Positions 1,470 through 12,707 of a DNA stretch of 13,775 bases are shown one piece after another (positions within the stretch are counted from its first letter, which is position 1; every line of letters begins with the position of its first letter). A program made the position numbers and the translations under genes. The notes under the pieces were generated by a model. That model ran no database searches. It was given only the letters and a program-made list of their open reading frames with translations, and was not told the origin of the DNA. Location of the stretch: NCBI GenBank assembly GCA_002451065.1, contig DKBC01000138.1:1-13775 (forward strand), read 5' to 3'. Source of the DNA: Betaproteobacteria bacterium UBA6910 (GTDB lineage Bacteria > Pseudomonadota > Gammaproteobacteria > Burkholderiales > UBA6910).

Positions 1470-2711
1470 TCACGGCCTCAGGTGAGTGACGCCGCCGAAA
1501 CTACCGATCCACTGGCTGCCGTCCGCCGCCGTGGTCATGGAAAAGACCAAGTCGCTGAACAGCCCGTCAGCGGTGGTGAACACCTTGAATTTTCCATTAT
1601 CGAATCGCGCCAGCCCCTTGCTCGTTCCGACCCACAGCTGATCCTTGGGATCGAAGTGCAGCATGAACACGTGGTTGCTTGGCAGCCCGTCCGCCGTGGT
1701 GTAGGTCTTCCACTTCTTGCCGTCGAAGCGCGAAAGCCCCCCGCCCCAGGTTCCTGTCCATACCGCGCCGTCCTTGCCGACCGCAATGGAAACGATGTAA
1801 TTGGGATTGTAGGCGACGTCAACGTCCTCCAGTCCCATCTCCTTCTTCTGGGCCGCGTGGTGCTCCGACATCTTCCCCGGATCGCTCTTGAATTCGATGT
1901 CGGCCTTCACCTTCTCGTAGGGTGCGCCGAGCCCTTTGGCGTGGTTCCAGTTCTCCCACGTGCCGTCCTTGAATCGGGCAAGCCCGCCCTCGGTCGCAAA
2001 CCAGATTTCACCGCTCTTGCCCTCGGCCAGGCCGTATACCCAATCGTTGGGCAAGCCGCTCCCGGTGCTCTCCACGGTGAAGGTGTCCCACTTGGAAGGA
2101 TCGTCCAGCGCGCCTCCCCGGACCCGGTTGGCGCCTGACCAGGTGGCGATCCACAGGTCTCCGTTGCGCACGCGGATCACGTCGTACACAAAGGCATCGG
2201 CGAGACCCTGGGGCACATTGTAGTTCTTCCACGCCTTGTTCGTTTCGTCGTAAATCGACAGTCCTCCGCCGTAGGTGCCGACGGTGATGCGGTCATCGAT
2301 CTTCCCGACGTAGAACATGCCGTTGGACAGCAGCCCGGTCTTGTTGTCGAACAGCTTGTACTGATCCGTGGTGGTGTCGTAGCGGATCACCCCCCCGGAA
2401 GTGCCGATCCACACCAGGTTCCCGTCGGCGAAGACCCGCTTCACGTTGCGATTCCCCACCCGGAAATGGGTGAACTTGGCGGTCGGGTCGGCGCCGGTAA
2501 CGGTTCCCTCCCGCACCGGCTCGGGGGGAGCACCGGGCTGGACTACCGGGGGGTGTCCGGCCGGAGTTTGCTGGGAAGCCGCGGGGGCGGGAGGCGCCGG
2601 CGGCGCGGGCTCCGGCTTGGTCGCCTGCTTCACACCCAGGGTATAAGCGCCCGCGACCAAGGCTCCAACCACGATGACCCCGAGCGCCGCCAACTTGAAA
2701 TCAACCTGCAT
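1470..2711 (-). CDS. Membrane-anchored seven-bladed Reg_prop beta-propeller protein
   Basis: 413 aa. An N-terminal membrane helix (about 8-26) is followed by a Pro/Ala-rich linker (about 32-68) and a beta-propeller (about 78-413). This suggests a periplasmic domain tethered to the inner membrane. Seven W-x-G-T-like blade ends are visible at W101, T143, W187, W237, W318, W360 and W401, mostly 41-50 residues apart. These are 'two-component regulator propeller' repeats, usually found as the sensor part of hybrid histidine kinases, but here there is no kinase domain. The step from W237 to W318 is 81 residues, so one blade carries an insertion, ending in YNPNY (301-305). The next gene upstream encodes a paralogue with the same insertion. 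The start is supported by an AGGA-rich ribosome site before the ATG. It is last in a five-gene operon. Function is unknown; ligand sensing or a scaffold for the neighbouring cytochrome c are possibilities. Confidence 0.88.
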   Translation of the reverse strand: MQVDFKLAALGVIVVGALVAGAYTLGVKQATKPEPAPPAPPAPAASQQTPAGHPPVVQPGAPPEPVREGTVTGADPTAKFTHFRVGNRNVKRVFADGNLVWIGTSGGVIRYDTTTDQYKLFDNKTGLLSNGMFYVGKIDDRITVGTYGGGLSIYDETNKAWKNYNVPQGLADAFVYDVIRVRNGDLWIATWSGANRVRGGALDDPSKWDTFTVESTGSGLPNDWVYGLAEGKSGEIWFATEGGLARFKDGTWENWNHAKGLGAPYEKVKADIEFKSDPGKMSEHHAAQKKEMGLEDVDVAYNPNYIVSIAVGKDGAVWTGTWGGGLSRFDGKKWKTYTTADGLPSNHVFMLHFDPKDQLWVGTSKGLARFDNGKFKVFTTADGLFSDLVFSMTTAADGSQWIGSFGGVTHLRP

Positions 2712-2747
2712 ATTCGGTCCTTCCTGTTCCTGACTTTGACTCTTCCC

Positions 2748-3821
2748 TCAGCGGCCGATCCGGGCCACGCCGTTCTTGGTGCCGGCCCATAGGTCCCCGC
2801 CGGGGGTGACCGCCAGCGCATAGACGTCGTTATCGAGCAGGCCCTCCTTGACACCAAAGCTGCGCCAGGTCTTGCCGTCATAGCGACTGACCCCCTTGTT
2901 GGTGCCGAACCAGAACACGCCCCGGCTGTCCTGGGCGATGCTGTAGACAATGTTTCCAGCAAGACCTTCGCGCGAGGTGAAATTGGTCCACTTGCTGCCG
3001 TCGAAGCGCGAAACGCCGCCACCCCAGGTCCCGGCCCAGACGTTTCCGTCCGGAGCCACGTGGATCGAGAAGACATAATTCGGGTTGTAGGTGGGCTGCC
3101 CCTCGGTCATGGTGGACAGGTCATGGCGGGAGCGAGTCCCCAATCCCGTATTGGCGCTGGGCTTCAGCTCCTCGACATTGGGTCCGCCCAGGCCGTCGGC
3201 ATGGGTCCAGGCGCGCCATTTCTTGCCGTCGAACATGGACACCCCGCCCTCGGTGCCGAACCAGATACGATCCTTCTGGTCCACGGCGATCCCGTAGACC
3301 CACTCGTTCACCAGCTCTTTCACGTAGTTCTTGAACTTGCCGGTCTTCAGGTCGAAATGGCTCGCCCCGGCCCAGGTCCCGATCCACAGGGACCCGTCCT
3401 TCTGGCTCGCGTAGGCATAGATCCAGTAGTCCGCCAGGCCGTGCATCGGGAAATAGGTCTTCCACTTGCCGTCCTTGTAGCGCGAGGTGCCGCCGGCATT
3501 GGTGCCGAACCACACGTAGTCCTGGCTGTCGATCCCCACCGCGAACACGTACTCGTTGGCCAGGCCCTGCTCCCGGGTAAAGGTGTTCTTCGGCTGCAGG
3601 GTCTTGAGATCGATTTCGTGCACCCCGGTCGAGGTGCCCACCCACATCACGTTGCGGCTTTTCTGCACGGTGAGGGCCCGGACATAAACATTCTTGCCCA
3701 CTTCGAAGGTTTCGGTGACGCGCTCCTCCGCCGCAGGCGCTGGTGCCGCCTGGCTTGTTAACGGGGAAAACGGTACGAGGGCGCCCATGAAGACCCACAG
3801 CCAATTGCGCATGGATTTCAT
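2748..3821 (-). CDS. Exported seven-bladed Reg_prop beta-propeller protein
   Basis: 357 aa with a Sec signal peptide (about 1-26, ending SQA before APAP), so probably a soluble periplasmic protein. Seven W-x-G-T blade ends occur at W60, W104, W146, W187, W262, W304 and W345. Spacing is 41-44 residues except for a 75-residue step between blades four and five, which contains a polar insertion ending in YNPNY (245-249). It has the same architecture as the protein encoded just downstream (36 bp away) but lacks that protein's proline-rich linker. The start overlaps the stop of the cytochrome c gene by 4 bp (ATGA), implying translational coupling. A second ATG three codons in is an alternative start. 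The propeller type is Reg_prop, and no enzymatic residues are recognisable. A role with the cytochrome c is inferred from coupling only. Confidence 0.88.
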   Translation of the reverse strand: MKSMRNWLWVFMGALVPFSPLTSQAAPAPAAEERVTETFEVGKNVYVRALTVQKSRNVMWVGTSTGVHEIDLKTLQPKNTFTREQGLANEYVFAVGIDSQDYVWFGTNAGGTSRYKDGKWKTYFPMHGLADYWIYAYASQKDGSLWIGTWAGASHFDLKTGKFKNYVKELVNEWVYGIAVDQKDRIWFGTEGGVSMFDGKKWRAWTHADGLGGPNVEELKPSANTGLGTRSRHDLSTMTEGQPTYNPNYVFSIHVAPDGNVWAGTWGGGVSRFDGSKWTNFTSREGLAGNIVYSIAQDSRGVFWFGTNKGVSRYDGKTWRSFGVKEGLLDNDVYALAVTPGGDLWAGTKNGVARIGR

Positions 3822-4129
3822 CGGATGGTTCTGATGTAAGAGATGATGTCCAGGATCTGCTGATCCCTCAGCAATCCCGTGAATCCCGGCATGGCATTCT
3901 TGCCGTACTTGACACTGTTCAGGAGCACGGCATCCGGCTGGAACACCCTCTCCTTGCGTGCAAAATTGGGGGCCCCGGGGAACACACTGATACCGTTAGG
4001 CCCGTGACAGACCGCGCAGTGCTGGGTGTACAGCTGCCCGCCCTGGACCGGATCCGCCGCCTGCACCGTACCCGCCCCCATGAGGAGCGCCAGTGCCAGC
4101 AGCTGGCGACGCCATGCATGCAATTTCAA
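3818..4129 (-). CDS. Small exported class I c-type cytochrome
   Basis: 103 aa with a Sec signal peptide (MKLHAWRRQ then a Leu/Ala-rich core, cleavage after VQA near residue 24), giving a mature periplasmic monoheme cytochrome of about 79 residues. The haem site is CAVCH (C38, C41, H42), and the likely distal ligand is M80 in the NAMPGF motif. The C-terminal helix ILDIISYIRTI is typical of the cytochrome_CBB3/c555-type fold. The TTG at 4129 was chosen because GGAG (4137-4140) lies 7 bases upstream and the resulting N-terminus is a normal signal peptide. A longer TTG start at 4156 would add nine polar residues. It lies 42 bp downstream of the Sel1 gene and overlaps the next propeller gene by 4 bp. 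It probably carries single electrons in the periplasm; donor and acceptor are unknown. Confidence 0.9.
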   Translation of the reverse strand: MKLHAWRRQLLALALLMGAGTVQAADPVQGGQLYTQHCAVCHGPNGISVFPGAPNFARKERVFQPDAVLLNSVKYGKNAMPGFTGLLRDQQILDIISYIRTIR

Positions 4130-4136
4130 TTTAGAT

Positions 4137-4140
4137 CTCC
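4137..4140 (-). promoter_or_regulatory. Shine-Dalgarno deciding the cytochrome c TTG start
   Basis: On the minus strand GGAG lies 7 bases before TTG at 4129. This placement favours that start over the more distal TTG at 4156, which has no such element and would lengthen the signal peptide. Confidence 0.5.
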
Positions 4141-4171
4141 GTTGATCTGAGGACAAAAGGTCTATCCCTCG

Positions 4172-4810
4172 TCACTTGTCTTCGGCCTTGCCGGCCGGTT
4201 TCTGCTTCGCCTTCAGCTTCGCTTCCCAAGCCGCCGCTTGGGCAGGGTCCTGGGGAAATCCATGTTTACCCGTTTTGTATCCGTCCACCACGGCGCGCAT
4301 GGCCGGCAGGTTGTCCTGCTCTGCGGCCGCCGTGATCCAGCGTCTCGCTTCCGCCATTTCCCCGTCATCCGCCGTGGCTCCGCCTTTGGCACCGGACATA
4401 TAGTGACCGGCCATGGCCGCCACCGCCGGGGGATACCCTTTCTCCGCCGCCTTCCGGATCCAGTCCCGGCCTTCTTTTTCGTTCTTCTCGATTCCGTCGC
4501 CCGAACGGTACATAACTCCGATGCCGAACATGGCCTCCGGGTCACCCTGATCCGCGGCCATCCGATAATACTTCATCGCCTGCTCGTTGTTGTCTGCTAC
4601 ATCCAGTAGTTGCCCGAGCAGGGCCTGGGCGCGCACATGGTTGGCTGCTGCCGCCCTTTCCAGGTTCTTCATGGCTCCGCCCATGTCGCCTTTCCGATAG
4701 GCTTCGTACCCCGCCTTGTAGTCCTCCTCTGCATCGGCCCAAACCGGGGAAGCAATCGCCAGTCCGAAAACAAACACCAGCCCATGAATCGTCGTGCGCC
4801 AGTCTCTCAT
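4172..4810 (-). CDS. Exported Sel1/TPR-like repeat protein
   Basis: 212 aa with an N-terminal signal peptide (hydrophobic core about 10-21, cleavage after VWA near residue 25), so periplasmic or lumen-facing. From about residue 28 onward it consists of helical repeats. The first pair resembles TPR (DYKAGYEAYRKGDMGGAMK). Canonical Sel1-like repeats follow, recognisable as KYYRMAADQGDPEAMFGIG-type and WIRKAAEKGYPPAVAAMA-type units. The tail is Lys/Ala-rich and probably disordered. Sel1 proteins are protein-interaction scaffolds. It lies 26 bp downstream of the response regulator and 42 bp upstream of the cytochrome c, within the same operon, so it may assemble the cytochrome or propeller proteins. 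That role is inference. Confidence 0.85.
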   Translation of the reverse strand: MRDWRTTIHGLVFVFGLAIASPVWADAEEDYKAGYEAYRKGDMGGAMKNLERAAAANHVRAQALLGQLLDVADNNEQAMKYYRMAADQGDPEAMFGIGVMYRSGDGIEKNEKEGRDWIRKAAEKGYPPAVAAMAGHYMSGAKGGATADDGEMAEARRWITAAAEQDNLPAMRAVVDGYKTGKHGFPQDPAQAAAWEAKLKAKQKPAGKAEDK

Positions 4811-4836: not shown

Positions 4837-6249
4837 TCAATCCTTGACCGATGCAGTTCTTGCCTTGGACTCCGCCCCGGACTGCCGGTCGAAATCTTCC
4901 AGCTTTCTATACAGGCTCGAAAGGCCGATCTCAAGGCGTTCCGCTGCCGCGCGCCGGTCGCCACCTGCCTCTTCGATGGCACGCAGGATGATGCCGTGCT
5001 CGACCGTCCGCAACTGCTCCCGGAGGCTGCCGCCGGAATAGGGTATTTCGGAACGCGTCCGCCCAGGGGCCGCGGCCCGCACCATGGCCGGGGGAAGATC
5101 CTCCAGTGTCACCCGTCCGTCCTCGGCGAGCACCAACGCCCGGTCAATCACGTTCTCCAGCTCCCGCACGTTGCCCGGCCAGCCATAGGCCTTGAGCATC
5201 TCTTCCGCTTCCGGCTCCACCGTGACCGGGCCCCGATAGCCGTAGCGCCCCTTGTTGCGCTCCACGAAAAAGCGCACCAACGCAGGAATGTCCTCGACGC
5301 GCTGCCGTAGAGGCGGAACCTCGACGTGAAAGACGCTGACCCGGAAATACAGGTCCTCGCGAAAATTCCCGGATTTGACCATGTCGACCAGGTCGCGGTT
5401 GGTGGCCACAATGATTCGCACATCCACTTTGCGTTCCTGCTCCGTGCCGAGGGGCCGCACTCCCTTGTCCTCGATCACGTGGAGCAGCTTGGTCTGCAGG
5501 GCGAGCGGCAACTCGCCGATCTCGTCGAGGAATATCGTGCCCTTGTCCGCTTGCAGAAACAATCCCTTTCGGGAGCGGTCGGCGCCGGTAAAGGCTCCCT
5601 TGGTATGGCCGAAGAATTCGCTTTCAAGGAGGTTCTCCGGTATGGCCCCGCAATTGACCGGGATAAAAGGCCCCGCGGCGCGCAGGCTCTGCTGATGAAT
5701 CTGGCGGGCGATGACCCCCTTCCCGGTCCCACTCTCGCCGGTGATCAAGACCGTGCTGTCGGTCCTGGCCACCTTGCCGATCACCCGATCGATGGCCTGC
5801 ATGGCGGGAGAAGAGAAGTGGAAATTTTCGTTCCGGTCGCCCAGTACCAGCTTGCGCAAGGTGAGGTTCTCGTCCCGCAGGCCCCGCAGGTCGCTGATTT
5901 GCGCCAGCCGGTGCAACACCTCCTCGTTCCGCAGGGGCTTGATCATGAAATCCAGGGCCCCGGCCTTCATGGCCTCGATGGCCGTGTCCACGGACGCGAA
6001 GGCCGTCATCATGATGAAAGAGGTGTCGATTCCCGCGGTCCGGGCCTGCCGTATGACGTCGATGCCGCTGATTCCGGGCATGCTGATGTCGCACATCGCC
6101 ACGTCGATGTCGCCTTTCGCGAGACGCCCCAGGGCCTCGTCGCCGCTGCCGGACTGCTCCACCGTGTAACCGGCTCGCGTGAGAAACGCGCTCACCACGG
6201 TCCGGATGGCCGGTTCGTCATCGATGACCAGAACGCTCATCGCGCTCAT
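4837..6249 (-). CDS. NtrC-family sigma-54-dependent response regulator
   Basis: 470-aa cytosolic transcription activator with three intact domains. The receiver domain (about 4-120) has the acidic pair D10/D11, phospho-acceptor D54 in CDISMPG, T82 and K104 (IKPL). The AAA+ domain (about 143-375) has Walker A GESGTGKG (171-178), the sigma-54 contact loop GAFTGA (218-223) and Walker B FLDEIGE (240-246). A C-terminal Fis-type helix-turn-helix (about 415-450) includes RAAAERLEIGLSSLYRKL. It should activate RpoN promoters when phosphorylated. ATG 6249 is preceded by GAGGGA; ATG 6240, three codons in, is an alternative. It is the first gene of the five-gene operon ending with the propellers. No histidine kinase is encoded in the window, so its sensor is elsewhere. 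The target promoters are not evident here. Confidence 0.96.
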   Translation of the reverse strand: MSAMSVLVIDDEPAIRTVVSAFLTRAGYTVEQSGSGDEALGRLAKGDIDVAMCDISMPGISGIDVIRQARTAGIDTSFIMMTAFASVDTAIEAMKAGALDFMIKPLRNEEVLHRLAQISDLRGLRDENLTLRKLVLGDRNENFHFSSPAMQAIDRVIGKVARTDSTVLITGESGTGKGVIARQIHQQSLRAAGPFIPVNCGAIPENLLESEFFGHTKGAFTGADRSRKGLFLQADKGTIFLDEIGELPLALQTKLLHVIEDKGVRPLGTEQERKVDVRIIVATNRDLVDMVKSGNFREDLYFRVSVFHVEVPPLRQRVEDIPALVRFFVERNKGRYGYRGPVTVEPEAEEMLKAYGWPGNVRELENVIDRALVLAEDGRVTLEDLPPAMVRAAAPGRTRSEIPYSGGSLREQLRTVEHGIILRAIEEAGGDRRAAAERLEIGLSSLYRKLEDFDRQSGAESKARTASVKD

Positions 6250-6278: not shown

Positions 6279-6473
6279 AGGGCAATGCCGCTCCGGCCTA
6301 TGGGCCAGGGAGGGCCGCGCGTTTTGAATTCAATATGTTAGCAGAAAGCGACGGACCGAGCCGTGCCTGTGCCCGCTAGAACTGACAGCGCGAGGCCCCG
6401 AGACGTTCCAAAGGGATGGTCGCCGGCACGGGGCGGCTGCTTTCCATCGTGGGATTCCGGCGCGGCCCATCGC

Positions 6474-6487
6474 TTGATTTCCATCAA
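6474..6487 (+). promoter_or_regulatory. FNR/Anr/Dnr-type operator (perfect consensus)
   Basis: TTGAT-TTCC-ATCAA matches the CRP/FNR-family anaerobic consensus TTGAT-N4-ATCAA exactly. Its centre (6480.5) is about 41.5 bases before a start point near 6522, which is also predicted from the -10-like TGCAAT at 6510-6515. That is class II activator geometry for the + strand 62-aa gene, leaving a leader of about 20 bases that contains the AGGAGG site. Whether FNR/Anr (oxygen) or Dnr/Nnr (NO) binds cannot be told from the box. Confidence 0.75.
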
Positions 6488-6529
6488 ACGCTTGGGCCGT
6501 TCGCCGTGCTGCAATGCCGGGCATTCCGC

Positions 6530-6535
6530 AGGAGG
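6530..6535 (+). promoter_or_regulatory. Shine-Dalgarno AGGAGG fixing a TTG start
   Basis: A full AGGAGG lies 6 bases before TTG at 6542. It decides the start of the 62-aa membrane protein, for which no suitably placed ATG exists. Confidence 0.75.
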
Positions 6536-6541
6536 AAACGC

Positions 6542-6730
6542 TTGGAAATCGTTTATTTCACCGTGATCGGCATCGGGTTGTATTTCTTCTCCGATTGGCT
6601 GCTCGATCAGATCGAGCGCCGGCGGGGACAGCGCTTCGCCCAGCGGGAAGTGATCTTTTTTCTGATCATCCTGGTGCTGGCCGTGCTCACCTTCCAGCTC
6701 ATCGGCCTGCTATCCCGGCCGGGCGGCTGA
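6542..6730 (+). CDS. Small two-helix inner-membrane protein of unknown function
   Basis: 62 aa with two hydrophobic segments (about 3-21 and 38-57) joined by a charged loop containing DQIERRRGQRFAQRE. This predicts a helical hairpin in the inner membrane. The start is TTG, fixed by AGGAGG at 6530-6535. It is preceded by a perfect FNR-type box with class II spacing. Its 3' end overlaps the 3' end of the convergent heme-copper oxidase-like gene by 32 bp. I do not recognise a family. Its shared regulation with the respiratory cluster suggests a small accessory or subunit of a respiratory membrane complex, by analogy with small oxidase subunits such as CcoQ, but there is no sequence signature for that. 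Confidence 0.75.
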   Translation: MEIVYFTVIGIGLYFFSDWLLDQIERRRGQRFAQREVIFFLIILVLAVLTFQLIGLLSRPGG

Positions 6731-8117
6731 GGGCGGGACGTCGCCGCATCGCGCGCAGCATCACCACCAGGAACATCAGCCCCCCGGCCACTGCGATCAA
6801 CCCCCCCAGCCCCATGATGCCCATGCCCATGACCTCGGCGCCGCTGCGCAGGGTCTGGGCAGCCCCTGCCACCTTGCGCTGCACGCCGTAGCCCCCGGAC
6901 CAGAGCAGGCCGGCGATGTGCAGCAGCTGACCGCCTCCGTAAACGTATGGCTGCCAAGCCGCCAGCCGGGAAGCGGGCGCCTCGAATCCCAGCCGCGGCA
7001 GCAGGTGATAGGCCACGCCCATGAACGCCAGCGTCACACCCACGATCGAGCCGTGATAATGGGCTGGGATCTTGACGTTGCTGCCGTGGATCAGGAACCC
7101 GATCATGCCGCCCGCCCCGAACAGCACCACGGAAGCGATCAGGGCGGCCCGCAGCGGACGTTGCTCGGCGTCGGGCACCGGGCCCGTCGCGAGTGCGATG
7201 AGCACCGCCAGGGCGAAGGGCACGATGGCGAGCCCGCCGCCAAATTGCATGAGCCAGGTGAGCAACCGGTGGTGCTCAACGGAGCCGACATCGTACGCCG
7301 CGTAGATCACCGGGGTCAGGAACACGGACACCAGACCCACCGCGAACAGCAGCACCGAGATACGCGGAGTGAGCGGCACCCGCGCGCCCGCGGCCTGGGC
7401 CAGCCAAAGCCAGGCCACCAGCATCAGCAGGGTGTAGGTGAACTGCAGCACGTGCCCGCCGCCCCAGAAGAGGAGCTCGAAGTACGCCTTGCCGTCGAGC
7501 CCCTCGGGTAGCGCCAGATAAGACCAGGCGAAGGCCATGAGGGCCACCGCCGCCGCCACCAAGGAGCTATTGAGCCCGAAGCGCAGGGCTCCCGTGCCGT
7601 CGATGCGGATTCCCACCAGCGGCACAGTGACCATGCTGCGCAGCGTGAGCAGGGCAAACCCCAGGGCAAAGATCGCCAGCCCCCAGAGAAAAACTGGATC
7701 TTCCAGCACCGGGATGTAATTGCTCATGATTGGGCCGCCACGGCCGATGAACGGGGCAGCAGACATCACCAGCGTGCCGATAACCGCCAGGAACAGGGCC
7801 GCCCATCCTCCGGCAATGAAACGTTCCGTGGTGTTCACGCTCCAGAACACGCCAGCGAAGGCCAGGAACCATACGAGCACCGACAGATCCACGTGCACCA
7901 CCAGGGCCACGTGAAAGAAGTCCACCAGCGGAAAGATGTCCTTGACGTAGGGCGCGCGAGACAGCACCAGCAGCACCGAGAACACGCCAGACAGGACCAG
8001 GGATGCGAGCCCCAGGATAAGCCACCCCACCGCAAGCGCTCTGCGGCTGCCAGCGGGGATCGGCAAGGAAAAATCCGCATTCCCGCCCAGCCCCGCGACC
8101 AGTCGACGCCAGCTCAT
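6699..8117 (-). CDS. Divergent heme-copper oxidase superfamily subunit I (possible NO reductase-like)
   Basis: 472 aa with about 12 membrane helices, the length and topology of a catalytic subunit I. All six expected ligands are present: H75 (helix 2, low-spin haem), H222 in WGGGH (helix 6), H282-H283 in EHHRLL (helix 7) for the copper/iron B site, and H353 and H355 in PAHYHG (helix 10) for the two haems. Residue 226, four after H222, is Phe. In A/B-type oxygen reductases this place holds the cross-linked Tyr, and in cNOR a Glu. It is likely to be annotated as a 'cbb3-type subunit I', but no CcoO, CcoP, CuA subunit II or NorC is encoded nearby. It is the third gene of an FNR-box operon and overlaps the preceding gene by 4 bp (ATGA). 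It is membrane-bound; the substrate is O2 or NO, with NO favoured because of the missing Tyr. Confidence is high for the superfamily and low for the substrate. Confidence 0.9.
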   Translation of the reverse strand: MSWRRLVAGLGGNADFSLPIPAGSRRALAVGWLILGLASLVLSGVFSVLLVLSRAPYVKDIFPLVDFFHVALVVHVDLSVLVWFLAFAGVFWSVNTTERFIAGGWAALFLAVIGTLVMSAAPFIGRGGPIMSNYIPVLEDPVFLWGLAIFALGFALLTLRSMVTVPLVGIRIDGTGALRFGLNSSLVAAAVALMAFAWSYLALPEGLDGKAYFELLFWGGGHVLQFTYTLLMLVAWLWLAQAAGARVPLTPRISVLLFAVGLVSVFLTPVIYAAYDVGSVEHHRLLTWLMQFGGGLAIVPFALAVLIALATGPVPDAEQRPLRAALIASVVLFGAGGMIGFLIHGSNVKIPAHYHGSIVGVTLAFMGVAYHLLPRLGFEAPASRLAAWQPYVYGGGQLLHIAGLLWSGGYGVQRKVAGAAQTLRSGAEVMGMGIMGLGGLIAVAGGLMFLVVMLRAMRRRPALSRPAGIAGR

Positions 8118-8608
8118 AGAATCAGCACCCCTCCCCGCTCCCGCTGGAAGTCCACGGTGACCACCCGCCCAGGGTCCAACTCAATGGTTACCCGGCGCTC
8201 GAACGTGTAGCCCTTGATGCGCTCGTCGTCGTTCACCTGCACCAGCAACTCATGGCGCCCCACCCGCAACGGAAACAGGCCGTAGGCCGTCGCGTTCCCG
8301 TCCCGCGCGATCCCGCCGGGCGGCAGGACCGCCTCATAAAGCGTCTCACCGTCCACTTCCATTCGCACCCGCAGGGACGACCGCCCCCGGGGACACTCGA
8401 CCTCGACGCGCATGTTGGGGGCACGCGCCGCCAGCTCGGCCGGGGTGAGACGGCGGCACTCGCCCAGGATGCGCCCGGGCGCCGCGATGGACAGCCGTAG
8501 CGCCCCCTGACCCTCCTGTGCAACCTGGTACTCGGGGTAGGCGGAGAGGACGCCTACCGCCACTGCGAATGCCGCGAACCATGCGAGCTGGCCGAGTACT
8601 CTAATCAA
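8114..8608 (-). CDS. Membrane-anchored beta-rich protein, two-cysteine family (copy 1)
   Basis: 164 aa: one N-terminal membrane helix (about 4-23), then an extracytoplasmic beta-rich domain. TTG at 8608 was chosen because AGGAGG (8615-8620) lies 6 bases upstream and it gives a clean membrane anchor; the longer ATG frame from 8716 runs inside the preceding gene. The start overlaps the previous gene's end by 8 bp and the stop overlaps the oxidase-like gene by 4 bp, so all three are coupled. The core carries ECR-x2-TP-x-ELA, then PNMR, then CPR, with cysteines C51 and C72. The C-terminal half (VGRHELLVQV ... DPGRVVTVDF) resembles PEGA-like surface-layer beta domains. A paralogue lies at 10270-10770 with identical cysteine spacing. 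Function is unknown. Assembly factor, metal or haem handling, or a subunit of the cytochrome b partner are all possible. Confidence 0.82.
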   Translation of the reverse strand: MIRVLGQLAWFAAFAVAVGVLSAYPEYQVAQEGQGALRLSIAAPGRILGECRRLTPAELAARAPNMRVEVECPRGRSSLRVRMEVDGETLYEAVLPPGGIARDGNATAYGLFPLRVGRHELLVQVNDDERIKGYTFERRVTIELDPGRVVTVDFQRERGGVLIL

Positions 8609-10208
8609 CAGCCACCTCCTGCCGCGCCAGCCGGCGGATGGCCTTTCCCTGCATGGAGCCCAGGCCAGATAGCTCGGCCCGGAAACTCGCCAGGGCGCGG
8701 CGGAGCTCTTCGACATCCCGCGCCGCGGCCCACGCGACTTTCACCCGCTCCCGGGGCACCGTGGGCCGCAGATGGGGCTCCCGCTCGCCCCGAATCCGCT
8801 CCTCCATCCAAAAATTGCCGAGACGGTAGGCGCAATCTCCGGGAAGGCATCCCGTCACCAGCACCCCGTCCGCCCCTCCGCGCAGGGCGTATTCGATGAA
8901 GGACGGCGGCAGCATGCCGGTGCAAAGCAGGCTCAATACCGTCGTGTCCGGACCGGCCAGGGCCTTCACTTCGGCGGCGCAGTCGCAGCCGACAACCACC
9001 ACCTTCACCGGCCCGGTGAGCTGCGCCACCGAGCGTTCGAGGCGGGCGCGCAGTTCCGCCACCGGGAGCTGTGGCATGTCGATGCCGGTCACCAGCGCCT
9101 CCACACTGCGAAAGGGCGTGGAAGATGGGCAGGCTCCGGCGCAAATGCCGCAGGCGGCGCACAGGTCCGGCAGCACCACGGCCTGCTGCCGGTGACCGCG
9201 CCGGCCGTCGGTGCGGGGCATCATGACCACCGCCGCGTAGGGGCAATCCGCGAAACAGCGCCCGCAGCCATTGCAGTTGTCCAGGCTCACGTGGGCCACC
9301 GGAGGCCGCTCACCCCGCCCCAGCAGCGGCAGCGCGGCGAGCCCCAGGGTGAACAGGCCGGACAGGGCCCAGAGAAACCCGGGGGAGGTGGCGTCCATCA
9401 GGGGATGCACGAACAGGTACCACCAGTCGAACGTCAAAGCACCAGGCAGGCGCGACAGGTCCGCCGGCGCGTTGCTTTCCGCGGGCAGGGCCAGGGAGAG
9501 CGCCACGAGCATGGCCAGCGTCCCCAGGGCAAGGCGCCGGGGGGGATTGGTCATGGGCCGGCTCACGCGCTGGATGTGCACCCACATCCCCAGCAGCAAC
9601 AGCAGGGGGATGCCGATGTGGAGGAACATGAGCAGCGAAAAAAAACGGTCGTTCACGCTCTCCGGCGTCAGGAAATTGCGCACCAGGGGCTCGGAAAATA
9701 CCGGCAGCCAGTCCAGCCACACGGCGCTGGCGATGATGGAATACTGGGCAAGGCCGTCCCACACCAGCCAGTAGCCGCCGATTCCCGATGCATAAACCAG
9801 CCAGACCAGGGGCACTCCCGTGAGCCAGGAAAACCAGCGAAACCCGGCATAACGGCGGAGCACGAACTCCTTCGCCAGGTGCAGGAACATCACCACCACG
9901 AACGCGTCCGAGGCATAGCGGTGCAGACTGCGCATCAGGCCTGCCGTTGGGCCGGCGGACATGGCCTCGACGGAGGCGTGGGCCCCGCTCACGCTGGTGT
10001 CGAACAGGGCGTAGACGTAGATGCCACTGACGGCGACGATCCAGAAAAAGAAAAATCCCAGGCTGCCGAGATTGCGCCACGGGTTGTCCCGGGCCCCGAA
10101 CGCCCGGTCGAACCGGGCCTGGAGCGCTTCCAGGGCGGCCTGCAGCCGCGGATGCGCCGCCGGCGCGGAAGTCTCACCGGCTCGAGTAATGGCGGCAACT
10201 TGGGACAT
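8601..10208 (-). CDS. Cytochrome b / 2x[4Fe-4S] ferredoxin / MvhD-like fusion protein
   Basis: 535 aa in three modules. (a) A membrane cytochrome b core (about 45-295) has two bis-histidine pairs, H96/H110 and H197/H211, both with 13 residues between them as in bc1-type cytochrome b. (b) Two ferredoxin-type [4Fe-4S] motifs follow: C312, C315, C318, C322 and C350, C353, C356, C360. (c) An MvhD/HdrA-associated iron-sulfur domain (about 400-475) has C408, C410, C429, C454 and C459 in VGCDC, LLCTG and TGCLPGDC. MvhD normally hands electrons between hydrogenase and heterodisulfide reductase. Fused to cytochrome b, it suggests electron exchange between a cytosolic low-potential partner and the membrane. 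It is the first gene of a three-gene operon ending with the heme-copper protein. An FNR-type box lies upstream. No Shine-Dalgarno precedes the ATG. Confidence 0.92.
   Translation of the reverse strand: MSQVAAITRAGETSAPAAHPRLQAALEALQARFDRAFGARDNPWRNLGSLGFFFFWIVAVSGIYVYALFDTSVSGAHASVEAMSAGPTAGLMRSLHRYASDAFVVVMFLHLAKEFVLRRYAGFRWFSWLTGVPLVWLVYASGIGGYWLVWDGLAQYSIIASAVWLDWLPVFSEPLVRNFLTPESVNDRFFSLLMFLHIGIPLLLLLGMWVHIQRVSRPMTNPPRRLALGTLAMLVALSLALPAESNAPADLSRLPGALTFDWWYLFVHPLMDATSPGFLWALSGLFTLGLAALPLLGRGERPPVAHVSLDNCNGCGRCFADCPYAAVVMMPRTDGRRGHRQQAVVLPDLCAACGICAGACPSSTPFRSVEALVTGIDMPQLPVAELRARLERSVAQLTGPVKVVVVGCDCAAEVKALAGPDTTVLSLLCTGMLPPSFIEYALRGGADGVLVTGCLPGDCAYRLGNFWMEERIRGEREPHLRPTVPRERVKVAWAAARDVEELRRALASFRAELSGLGSMQGKAIRRLARQEVAVD
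8615..8620 (-). promoter_or_regulatory. Shine-Dalgarno AGGAGG inside the upstream gene
   Basis: On the minus strand AGGAGG lies 6 bases before TTG at 8608, within the last codons of the cytochrome b fusion gene. It fixes the start of the small two-cysteine protein. Confidence 0.7.
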
Positions 10209-10242
10209 GGCGGGATGCTACCGCTTGCGGCCGGCCGCGAGT

Positions 10243-10256
10243 TTGATATCCGTCAA
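10243..10256 (-). promoter_or_regulatory. FNR/Anr/Dnr-type operator of the cytochrome b-MvhD operon
   Basis: On the minus strand it reads TTGAC-GGAT-ATCAA, one change from the perfect consensus and within the accepted range for the family. A -10-like TAGCAT follows at 10220-10215. A class II centre at -41.5 would put the transcription start at about 10208, essentially on the ATG, so this mRNA may be leaderless. The box lies just outside the 3' end of the 166-aa gene (10270). Confidence 0.7.
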
Positions 10257-10269
10257 CCGTATTCGGCCG

Positions 10270-10770
10270 CTACCCCTTGAAAAGGAAGCCTCCCTGCGCT
10301 GCGTTGAAATCGATTACCACGGCCCGGCCCGGAGCGAGGTCCAGCGATTCCTCGTGCACGTAGTTGAACTCGCCTTCCGGACGGTCCCGCAGCCGCGCCA
10401 CGAACCGGTGCTTGCCCGCGGCCACGGGCAACCGGCGGTAGATGGTGGACGCGCCGTCCTTCGTGAATCCCGCGGGCGGCACGTCGGCGGCGAATATCAC
10501 ACGCCCGTCCATCTCGATTTCCACCTTGACCGGAGATCGCTCCCGCGGGCAGTCCATGGCGGCCCGCATGTTGGGCGGCAGCTTGGCCAGTTCCTCCGGC
10601 GTACGCTGCCGGCATTCCACCTTCCGGGCGCCGGCATGGCTGAAGGAGAGCCGCACCAGGGCTTGGCCGTGGGCAATGTCGGTGAAGCGGGGCTGAGTGG
10701 AAAAATAGCCGAGGATCACCATCAGCGGCACATAGAGCAGCGCCTGGGCCACGAAGCGCGCCGCCTTCAT
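10270..10770 (-). CDS. Membrane-anchored beta-rich protein, two-cysteine family (copy 2)
   Basis: 166 aa: an N-terminal membrane helix (about 6-23), then an extracytoplasmic beta-rich domain. It is clearly homologous to the 164-aa protein at 8114-8608. Both share ECR-x2-TP-x-ELA, PNMR and CPR with cysteines (C53 and C74 here) exactly 21 residues apart, followed by PPxG and a G-K/R-H-x-F/L ... PGR-V-VxxDF C-terminal half of PEGA-like character. The ATG at 10770 overlaps the stop of the reductase fusion by 4 bp (ATGA), so translation is coupled; longer frames upstream are inside that gene. Each copy follows a cytochrome b fusion, which suggests it works with that core rather than with the differing soluble modules. 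No known function is recognised. Confidence 0.85.
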   Translation of the reverse strand: MKAARFVAQALLYVPLMVILGYFSTQPRFTDIAHGQALVRLSFSHAGARKVECRQRTPEELAKLPPNMRAAMDCPRERSPVKVEIEMDGRVIFAADVPPAGFTKDGASTIYRRLPVAAGKHRFVARLRDRPEGEFNYVHEESLDLAPGRAVVIDFNAAQGGFLFKG

Positions 10771-12707
10771 AACCTGCCTCCGAGCTTGACCATTTCGGTC
10801 GCCCGGGCCTGGATCTGGGGCGCCAGCTTGAAGGCGTCGGAGAAGCAGTCGTCCGCCGACAGCCCGTGGGACACGAACGCCGGGTGGGCGGCTTCGACCA
10901 TGGCCACCGAGCCACAGGCATAGATCTGATGCTCGGCCAGATCCGGGAAGTCCTCGATGATCGCCTCGTGCACCAGCCCGGTCCGGCCCTGCCAGTGATC
11001 CTCGGGCCTCGCCTCGGAGAGCACCGGCACGAACTTGAAATTCGCATGTTCCCGCTCCCATTGATGGGGGAGATCAGCGAGGTACAGATCCTTCAGGCTG
11101 CGCACGCCCCAGTAGAGGAGCATCTGCCGCTTGAGGCCGGTGTGGAAAGCGTGCTCGACCATGGCCTTGACCGGCGCGAAGCCGGTGGCGCCGGCCACGA
11201 AGATGATGGGCTTGCGGCTGTCCTCCCGCAGGAAGAACGCCCCCAGGGGCCCCTCGAAGCGGACCGGGTCCCCTTCCTTCATTTCGTTGAACACGTGGGT
11301 GGTAAAACGCCCGCCGGGAATGAGCCGCACATGAAGCTCGATCAGGTCCGCTAGGTGGGGCGCGGTGGCGAAGGAAAAGGCCCGCTTCTCGCCGTCGGGC
11401 AGGATGATGTTGATGTACTGGCCGGGGTAGAAGCGGATCTTTTCCCCTCCCCCGGGTTTCAGGAACACCTGCATCACGTCCGGCGAGAGCTTCCGCATGC
11501 GCTCGACCCGGGCGGTGTAGGTCTTGACGGGGATTCCGCCCGGCGCTTCCTTGGGCTCGTACTCGATCTCGATGTCCGAGAGCGGCGTGCACACGCAGAA
11601 CAGCGCCTTGCCCGCCTGGCGCTCCTCCTCGGTGAGCACGTTGGACTGATAGAGCCCGGGGTCCACCCGCCCGCTCAGCACCGTGCCCTTGCACACACCG
11701 CAGCCGCCGTTGCGGCACTCGAAGGGCATCGGAATGCCCTCCTTCAGCGCCGCATCCAGGACGCTCTCCCCCTCCCGCACCGGAATGATCCGGTTATCCG
11801 GATGGACCATGATGTGGAACCCTTCCTGGGGTCCCAGGCGCCGCTTGGGCGGCAACCAGGGCAGCAACACCAGCAGGGCGGTGAGTCCACCCGTTAAAGC
11901 CCACACGGCCCCTGGAGACCATTCGTAGATCAGCGGATAAACCGTCAGGTAGAACCAGTCGAATGGAATCGTGGTGACCGCCGCCGACAGGTCCGCCCGC
12001 TCCAGGCTCACCGCCGGCTTCACCAGGGAAAGGACCACCAGGGCGGCGAGCAGCGTGACCGCGATGGGCCAGGGGGGGTTGGTGCGGGCCTGGGGCACGC
12101 GCTGGGTGTGGACCCAGAGCAGGAACAGGGTGCCCAGGGGAATGCCGATGTGGATAAAGGAAAGCAGGGAGAACAGCCGGTCGTTGACGCTTTCCTGGAA
12201 GATGAAATTCCGGATCAGGGTGCCGTTGAAGATGGGAAGCCAGTCGAACCACTCCGCCGTGGCCACCACCACGAACTGCGCCAGCCGGTCCCAGGGCAGC
12301 ATGTAGCCGTTGATGCCCGCTGCATAGACCAGCCACAGCAGCACGATGCCGGTGATCCAGGAGAACCAGCGGAAGCTGCGGTACTGGTCGAAAAAGAAAT
12401 GGCGGCCCAGGTGCAGCAGCATGAAGAACACCATGCCGTCGGAGGCATACCGGTGCAGGCTGCGCATGACGCCCCCCAGGTACCACTGCTGCACCGTCAG
12501 GTACTCGACGGAATCGTAGGCCTGGTTCACGCCGGTGCTGAAAAAGACGTAGAGGTAGAGGCCGCTGGCCACCACGATCCAGAACAGGAAATAGCTGATG
12601 GGTCCCAGGTAATAGAGCGGATTGAGGCGGTCGCCGAAGGCGAAGTTGAACACGCCCTCCGCGCGATGGAACAGCCAGCGCCCCGAGCGGTGGATAAGAG
12701 TGAGCAT
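10767..12707 (-). CDS. Cytochrome b / [2Fe-2S] ferredoxin / FAD-NAD(P)H reductase fusion protein
   Basis: 646 aa in three modules. (a) A membrane cytochrome b core (about 33-285) has bis-histidine pairs H85/H99 and H186/H200, homologous to the core of the 535-aa fusion. (b) A plant-type [2Fe-2S] domain (about 297-385) has C331, C336, C339 and C371. (c) A ferredoxin-reductase-type module (about 395-646) has the FAD motif RAFSFA (442-447), the nucleotide loop GATGFAP (506-512) and CGS (598-600). The order ferredoxin then reductase is like BenC/NqrF-type enzymes. It would move electrons from NAD(P)H through FAD and the cluster to b haems, and on to quinone or a membrane partner; direction and acceptor are unknown. 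The ATG at 12707 was chosen because the cytochrome b homology starts there. A longer frame to 13034 crosses the FNR box and is not credible. It forms a two-gene operon with the 166-aa protein. Confidence 0.93.
   Translation of the reverse strand: MLTLIHRSGRWLFHRAEGVFNFAFGDRLNPLYYLGPISYFLFWIVVASGLYLYVFFSTGVNQAYDSVEYLTVQQWYLGGVMRSLHRYASDGMVFFMLLHLGRHFFFDQYRSFRWFSWITGIVLLWLVYAAGINGYMLPWDRLAQFVVVATAEWFDWLPIFNGTLIRNFIFQESVNDRLFSLLSFIHIGIPLGTLFLLWVHTQRVPQARTNPPWPIAVTLLAALVVLSLVKPAVSLERADLSAAVTTIPFDWFYLTVYPLIYEWSPGAVWALTGGLTALLVLLPWLPPKRRLGPQEGFHIMVHPDNRIIPVREGESVLDAALKEGIPMPFECRNGGCGVCKGTVLSGRVDPGLYQSNVLTEEERQAGKALFCVCTPLSDIEIEYEPKEAPGGIPVKTYTARVERMRKLSPDVMQVFLKPGGGEKIRFYPGQYINIILPDGEKRAFSFATAPHLADLIELHVRLIPGGRFTTHVFNEMKEGDPVRFEGPLGAFFLREDSRKPIIFVAGATGFAPVKAMVEHAFHTGLKRQMLLYWGVRSLKDLYLADLPHQWEREHANFKFVPVLSEARPEDHWQGRTGLVHEAIIEDFPDLAEHQIYACGSVAMVEAAHPAFVSHGLSADDCFSDAFKLAPQIQARATEMVKLGGRL

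Follow-up and report, generated by a model that had tools for sequence, protein, structure and literature searches.

Two paralogous b6-like cytochrome fusions co-occur with a predicted eNOR-type nitric oxide reductase and may exchange electrons with it

What do two cytochrome b proteins do that share one membrane core and end in different redox modules? The question is raised by a stretch of 13,775 nucleotides (the window), contig DKBC01000138.1 (C90) of Betaproteobacteria bacterium UBA6910 (GCA_002451065.1; order Burkholderiales), a genome of 365 contigs that is 85.5% complete and whose closest named relatives are betaproteobacterial metagenome-assembled genomes. On its minus strand, a cytochrome b6-like core fused to [2Fe-2S], FAD and NAD(P) domains (P0001, the NAD(P)H fusion) is followed by the small protein pA, a similar core fused to [4Fe-4S] motifs and an MvhD domain (P0002, the MvhD fusion), the pA paralogue pB and a heme-copper-like protein (P0003; Table 1). 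A preliminary description of the window regarded the fusions as a modular membrane electron carrier beside a terminal oxidase-like protein. Our comparison of genes and genomes points to another partner: with about even confidence, we read the fusions as paralogous b6-like cytochromes that co-occur with eNOR, a predicted nitric oxide (NO) reductase, and through which the quinone/eNOR side would likely receive electrons from NAD(P)H in the cytoplasm and from a donor linked to Fe-S/MvhD.

Both open reading frames (ORFs) lie where they had been placed, on the minus strand, and are free of internal stops. The motifs SLHRYASD, FRWFSW, LPxF and SVNDR are all present in both proteins, and the shared four-histidine core was borne out by 53% identity over about 270 residues with all four haem histidines in each. 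The different redox ends were confirmed by Pfam, which gives cytochrome b plus Fer2, FAD_binding_6 and NAD_binding_1 for P0001 and cytochrome b plus Fer4 and FlpD for P0002. Ligand conservation was counted over the window sequence and its best homologues among the matches listed (120 for the NAD(P)H fusion and 121 for the MvhD fusion). The haem histidines H85/H99/H186/H200 and H96/H110/H197/H211 are invariant in 120/120 NAD(P)H fusions and 121/121 MvhD fusions, respectively, as are the four [2Fe-2S] cysteines of the former (120/120) and the eight [4Fe-4S] cysteines of the latter (121/121). In the MvhD domain, C408, C429, C454 and C459 are invariant in all 121, and a fifth cysteine, C410, is found in 91. 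The C-terminal part of P0002 matches only the C-terminal module (569-774) of HdrA2 NF040770, with 89 bits against a cut-off of 1100; no HdrA flavin domain was found in P0002, which thus does not qualify as a member of HdrA/HdrA2.

Among solved relatives, b6 is closest to the P0001 core, and among cytochromes b it is again b6 that comes closest to P0002. Where a Qo site has its PEWY motif, Asp is found in 241/241 and Trp in 240/241 of the listed sequences of both fusions; only this Asp-Trp is conserved, and positions one and four of the motif vary. Two further hydrophobic segments flank Asp-Trp, C-terminal to the four-helix part of the cores. Because the Fe-S and flavin modules come after these segments, a cytoplasmic location of the modules would be the simplest topology.

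To follow the fusions across genomes, we scanned 300 genomes of the order, and 369 and 309 genomes of the phylum for eNOR and the MvhD fusion, respectively. In the order, eNOR was detected in 22 genomes, the NAD(P)H fusion in 20, the full MvhD fusion in 20 (23 matches, three of them through the shared core only) and the heme-copper-like protein in 23 (weakly in G145). All 22 eNOR genomes, which cover 13 family labels, contain the heme-copper-like gene and at least one fusion; both fusions are present in 17 of them, and eNOR and a fusion share one contig in 19. A fusion lacking an eNOR match was seen in only one of the remaining 278 genomes, and all these genes can be missing from other members of a family or genus that has them (G001, G008). 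At the phylum level, eNOR was found in 30/369 genomes including that of the window. The full MvhD fusion is present in 28 of the other 29, and in the single miss (G367) the eNOR contig stops directly after SCO1; a heme-copper-like match (E≤1e-25) likewise occurs in 28 of these 29, at only 38% identity in G478. Conversely, the MvhD fusion was matched in 33/309 genomes, 28 of which are on the eNOR list. Of 20 eNOR stretches that were fetched, 11 contain the MvhD fusion and nine do not contain it.

In genomes beyond the order, cross-matches through the shared core revealed no NAD(P)H fusion, and no search with P0001 was made there; inside the order, such cross-matches recovered all 20 NAD(P)H fusions. 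It seems from these gene distributions that the MvhD fusion is a general partner of eNOR and that the NAD(P)H fusion, in these genome scans, is confined to this order. A strict limit is called into question by P0364, a 68%-identical NAD(P)H fusion labelled as from a Bacteroidota bacterium, which may stem from a mis-binned contig or from transfer beyond the phylum. The pairing of the two fusions is not obligate, as three order genomes have the MvhD fusion only and three the NAD(P)H fusion only. Thus, of the co-occurrence expected by the preliminary description, the recurrence of the pair was recovered (both fusions in 17/300 order genomes, at least one in 22/22 eNOR genomes), and the fusions do track eNOR and heme-copper-like genes; their dependence on each other did not hold, since outside the order the MvhD fusion is present where no NAD(P)H fusion could be detected.

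The gene order of relatives agrees with this partnership. Searches with the NAD(P)H fusion matched 52 loci, comprising 34 with the reductase part only (L088 being cut by a contig end), 15 whole fusions, two cut ones and one MvhD fusion (L086). For the locus alignments, loci that duplicate another one from their genome (L001, L003, L008, L009, L011-L015, L089, L091) and sequences that failed to cover the domain were dropped, and the broken L085 was kept as is. The relatives' order is CuA-like subunit II, eNOR subunit I, CtaB, SCO1, NAD(P)H fusion, pA, MvhD fusion, (pB) and the heme-copper-like gene; the recurring part is CuA subunit, eNOR, CtaB, SCO1, a cytochrome b fusion and a p gene, and in Gallionellaceae the heme-copper-like gene stands ahead of the MvhD fusion. 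Of the named loci, 15 have an NAD(P)H fusion that is whole; pA and the heme-copper-like gene are present in all 15 of them, and the MvhD fusion in 14; in L085 the MvhD gene is split into two frames, and L041 has none within its 6.5 kb. Where at least 6.5 kb of upstream sequence was available, eNOR lies upstream in 11 of 12 named loci, and it also adjoins the two NAD(P)H fusions cut by contig ends (L054 and L069).

The relatives' second heme-copper enzyme was assigned to eNOR for two reasons. Its subunit I has the Thermus ba3 oxidase (B-type) as nearest solved chains, with all six metal-ligand histidines invariant in 19/19 sequences, and the position of the cross-linked Tyr of oxidases is Gln in 19/19 (GHSSQQ, compared with GHPIVY in ba3). 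At this active-site position, Gln marks eNOR, Asn sNOR and Tyr the oxygen reductases (PMC8756737, Table A4; publications given by PMC number are cited from excerpts). We therefore predict an eNOR-type nitric oxide reductase; eNOR has been characterized biochemically and reduces NO (PMC11388526). The upstream subunit II shows a CuA-like CxxxC...H...M pattern by eye and scores 20.1 bits with COX2, just below the Pfam cut-off of 22; the relatives' enzyme resembles known eNOR clusters in both its glutamine and its CuA-like subunit. The window's own genome encodes a CuA-like subunit and a 298-amino-acid eNOR fragment with GHSSQQ that runs off the end of contig C286; beside them lie a gene for heme A synthase (COX15-CtaA) and another ORF that by eye resembles it. 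The genes upstream of the fusions have an order similar to that of norSY-senC of Nitrosomonas (PMC6967387), which had suggested sNOR; this identity was ruled out because the active-site residue is Gln, not Asn. Judging from gene content, the stable terminal partner of the fusions appears to be the eNOR-type enzyme, not the neighbour at 6699-8117. The modular carrier first proposed thus keeps its NAD(P)H port, its Fe-S/MvhD port and its genetic tie to heme-copper proteins; its consistent partner is eNOR instead of the adjacent gene.

The surroundings of these clusters include genes that fit an NO setting. The nitrite reductase NirS, with c and d1 domains, makes NO. Cytochrome cd1-type genes with both domains occur in 13 of 42 cluster stretches, which differ in length and were not matched by a control count: L126:13236-14894, L130:13639-15489, L128:3323-5068, L133:15621-17516, L134:16053-17774, L096:16029-18128, L139:12495-14066 and six more loci. 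Their products are of two diverged kinds (about 25% identity between kinds), and five of them matched no NCBIfam family at E≤1e-20; they may be NirS or a relative such as NirN. NnrS is encoded beside the cluster in two of the 42 stretches (L096, L092). In some loci cd1-type and small c-type genes sit outside the clusters, and the nearest c-type gene of the window encodes a small cytochrome c (3818-4156). The cd1 context supports an NO setting, not a direction of electron flow.

The neighbouring protein P0003 had been described as terminal oxidase-like. It is indeed a diverged relative: its AlphaFold model has the heme-copper fold (predicted local distance difference test, pLDDT, 87.8), and in structure comparison (VIA-align) the scores of A-, B-, C- and NOR-type chains differ by no more than about 2 Z units; sequence searches of PDB gave no match for P0003 alone or as profile A2. 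H75, H222, H353 and H355 are invariant in all aligned sequences, and we take them to be two low-spin haem ligands, one high-spin haem ligand and one CuB ligand. The CuB pair HH is kept in 6/22 locus sequences and in 72/121 close homologues listed, so the three conserved CuB histidines that characterize heme-copper reductases are not a feature of this family. Moreover, the position of the oxidase cross-linked Tyr (H222+4) is Phe in 121/121 homologues listed, unlike in O2 reductases. The window copy retains the HH pair and all six histidines, and a copper site is possible there. Despite these six histidines, the reading as a terminal oxidase was rejected because of the ligand conservation; P0003 is probably not a terminal enzyme and is predicted to be an accessory haem protein. 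A second heme-copper-like protein of the same genome (L104:1751-3679, contig C264), 48% identical to P0003, has a C-terminal TPR extension and lacks the CuB pair by eye; ORFs resembling c-haem biogenesis proteins and multihaem cytochromes adjoin its gene by eye.

A tree of 56 cores without an outgroup offers a view of how the pair evolved. All 23 NAD(P)H-type cores lie on one side of a single branch (99/93, 100% of 200 bootstrap trees), and the two MvhD cores of locus L143 are mutual closest relatives (98/97). An MvhD tail was likely replaced by a reductase tail, although a tree lacking an outgroup does not fix this direction. Since the NAD(P)H cores form one clade and the L143 cores pair separately, paired cores seem to have arisen twice. 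These data are compatible with a heterodimer of cores instead of the homodimer that cytochrome b usually forms. The L143 fusions adjoin each other within one eNOR cluster (L143:7566-10994, genome G493), and two neighbouring MvhD-type fusions were found in four genomes of one family (G431, G493, G515, G560).

Electron exchange for eNOR is the most likely function of the fusions, and it could run either way. In the forward direction, from an NAD(P)H or Fe-S donor to NO, both cores would sit together in the membrane with pA and pB on its periplasmic side; the NAD(P)H port and the Fe-S/MvhD port would feed in electrons from the cytoplasm, which would cross the membrane through the two b haems to the quinone/eNOR side and reach NO (or O2) at eNOR, either without an intermediate or via quinol. 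We prefer this direction because it needs no extra assumption and because a pattern search limited to the 42 loci revealed no ORF with a Rieske motif within the clusters. Its lone match, in L044, falls beyond the cluster and seems to be spurious. Judging from their coordinates, same-strand ORFs with CxxCH inside clusters are either cluster genes or alternative frames that overlie such genes, and a Rieske protein plus cytochrome c1/f encoded with cytochrome b was not found within these clusters.

Several observations weigh against forward flow to eNOR. Genetic linkage shows neither a complex nor a direction, and the Fisher p values for co-occurrence in the order (5.5e-22 to 1.8e-32) are descriptive only and ignore shared ancestry. 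G153 carries the NAD(P)H fusion and no eNOR; L050 has the fusions and no eNOR in the 6.5 kb upstream; and five genomes with the MvhD fusion, presumed to be among those scanned for eNOR, are not on the eNOR list (G416, G432, G440, G515, G560), four of them being 69-82% complete and G440 96%. In the window's own genome the operon is broken or rearranged, with the eNOR fragment on another contig and an opposite-strand HlyD-family gene after the NAD(P)H fusion. In energetic terms, flow from the cytoplasm to a quinone on the periplasmic side would be wasteful compared with complex I, and NAD(P)H oxidation has been argued to be wasteful for the anammox Rieske/cytochrome b complexes (PMC12954380).

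The closest published proposal, for these same anammox complexes, runs in the opposite direction, which makes NO-driven bifurcation of quinol a serious rival, even if an unlikely one in our estimate (PMC12954380). Quinol would be oxidized at the Qo-like Asp-Trp site, one electron passing to eNOR and NO and the other via the b haems to NAD(P)+ and the Fe-S/MvhD port as low-potential reductant. Conservation of Asp-Trp at the Qo place in both cores speaks for it, and the cd1-type genes near 13/42 clusters suit the NO setting. NO is, besides, a very strong acceptor. The anammox complexes (Kuste4569-4574, Kustd1480-1485) share the module logic of a b6-like cytochrome, subunit-IV-like helices, a cytoplasmic NAD(P) module and a link to nitrogen oxides, and quinol bifurcation coupled to nitrite reduction has been proposed to make NAD(P)H there (PMC12954380). 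They differ in consisting of separate subunits with a Rieske protein and a multihaem cytochrome c (PMC12954380), whereas here the modules are fused and the clusters of the 42 loci lack a Rieske-motif ORF, which counts against bifurcation. By our own estimate, ubiquinone with a first acceptor in the CuA range would also leave the low-potential electron short of NAD+. The fuller version, a Rieske-free NO-driven quinol-splitting machine in which eNOR takes one electron and twin b6 cores send the other to the NAD(P)H and Fe-S ports, appears doubtful to us; if true, quinol splitting would supply low-potential reductant to denitrifying chemolithotrophs with no need for reverse complex I.

Somewhat less credible than bifurcation is a plain NAD(P)H:quinone oxidoreductase for redox balance that would be tied to eNOR solely by shared low-oxygen regulation. 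The domains required are present in the NAD(P)H fusion, and such an enzyme could correspond to the 'novel quinol reductase' of Accumulibacter, which is said to be a cytochrome b/b6 fused to NAD(P) and flavin domains and was reportedly treated by Garcia Martin in 2006 and Skennerton in 2015. That reductase is present in most Accumulibacter genomes, with a homologue in Propionivibrio (PMC4930944); the likeness is one of description only, and its excerpted account gives a role in anaerobic quinol reoxidation and no eNOR link (PMC4930944). The tight co-occurrence with eNOR over the 13 family labels argues against such a plain oxidoreductase, as does the MvhD fusion, which has no NAD(P) domains and is more widely linked to eNOR.

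A trans-membrane supply of reductant for assembly of the eNOR copper/haem site (SCO1/CuA loading), outside catalysis, is very improbable: the cluster does adjoin SCO1 and heme O synthase, and pA and pB have two invariant cysteines, yet two costly, different redox modules and a Qo-like motif exceed the needs of copper reduction, and no such protein is known to be needed in oxidase assembly. Reduction of NAD(P)+ from quinol driven by the proton motive force was rejected on sidedness, as electrons moving from the p-side to the n-side would oppose the membrane potential.

Electron exchange between the fusions and eNOR would be new in its combination, not in all its parts. For the MvhD fusion, the combination of domains has already been published, with no accompanying discussion in the excerpt, as an appendix table row, RME88945.1, an ORF with cytochrome b6, DMSOR_beta-like and FlpD domains; the set is identical, the likeness rests on the table entry, and the row states no eNOR link (PMC8756737, excerpt). 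eNOR itself has been reported in Gallionellaceae and Zetaproteobacteria (PMC10734462, PMC8114936), and the excerpts of these two papers contain no mention of cytochrome b fusions with eNOR. Beyond the PMC8756737 row, we found no description of a link between cytochrome b, MvhD and eNOR, or of the fusion pair, in the literature searched, which did not extend to the gene-cluster figures of Murali et al. 2024. The 4Fe-4S and MvhD modules of HdrA-MvhD proteins of the HdrA2/QmoB type match the tail of P0002, which differs from them in having a b6-type cytochrome in place of the HdrA flavin domain. On contig C236 of the same genome, HdrA-like, HdrA-Fer4-FlpD and HdrB-like genes (L154:6737-11919) lie near a LysR gene with CbbR as best NCBIfam match. 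We take the HdrA-like and HdrA-FlpD genes to be QmoAB-like; the HdrA-type genes are a candidate soluble partner for the MvhD port, unlinked to the cluster.

Table 1. Coordinates of the clustered genes in the window
Feature	Position	Strand	Evidence and remarks
P0001, cytochrome b6-like core + [2Fe-2S] + FAD + NAD(P) fusion, 646 amino acids	10767..12707	-	Pfam PF00033, PF13631, PF00111, PF00970, PF00175; invariant haem/[2Fe-2S] ligands
pA (P0005), 166 amino acids	10270..10770	-	Beta domain and a single membrane helix at the N terminus; two cysteines invariant
P0002, cytochrome b6-like core + two [4Fe-4S] motifs + MvhD/FlpD fusion, 535 amino acids	8601..10208	-	Pfam PF00033, Fer4 models, PF02662
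pB (P0004), pA paralogue	8114..8608	-	Probable TTG start at 8608, AGGAGG 8620-8615
P0003, diverged heme-copper oxidase-like, 472 amino acids	6699..8117	-	PF00115 45.5 bits; heme-copper fold (AlphaFold + structure comparison)
Small ORF facing the cluster	6416..6730	+	blastp homologues in relatives' loci

The coordinates show that pA shares 4 bases with the end of the NAD(P)H fusion, that the end of the MvhD fusion is overlapped by pB, and that P0003 shares 4 bases with pB; because of these overlaps the five minus-strand genes look like a single transcription unit. A plus-strand HlyD-family gene begins upstream of the NAD(P)H fusion. The proteins pA and pB, 35-37% identical, are predicted from sequence to be small exported-looking proteins encoded after the cores. 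No match to pA was found in Pfam or NCBIfam, its two cysteines are invariant in an alignment of 29 sequences (A1), and its AlphaFold model is confident (pLDDT 95.7); Foldseek found no PDB match for the model at E≤0.001, the best template-modeling score being about 0.4. For pB, a 200-amino-acid ORF from 8716 is probably too long, since the TTG in Table 1 is preceded by the AGGAGG listed there. The ORF at 6416-6730 has no Pfam or NCBIfam match, and its blastp homologues adjoin or overlap the p or heme-copper-like gene in several eNOR loci. Beside the cluster, the window encodes two two-component-regulator-propeller proteins, a small cytochrome c and a Sel1-repeat protein (1470-4810), as well as a sigma-54 response regulator with a receiver domain (4837-6249). 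Propeller and Sel1 homologues also lie downstream in locus L039, as does a 70%-identical homologue of the regulator; no regulator homologue of comparable similarity was found in the other loci compared.

To our knowledge, the electron supply of eNOR in Proteobacteria is unclear. eNOR is a recently characterized NO reductase and hence a source of nitrous oxide (N2O), and a b6-Fe-S/MvhD fusion that tracks it would name its likely dedicated partner. Such a partnership would connect the reduction of NO with the metabolism of NAD(P)H and low-potential Fe-S carriers, and it would offer a second, Rieske-free test case for nitrogen-oxide-driven formation of NAD(P)H via cytochrome b, so far proposed for anammox bacteria.

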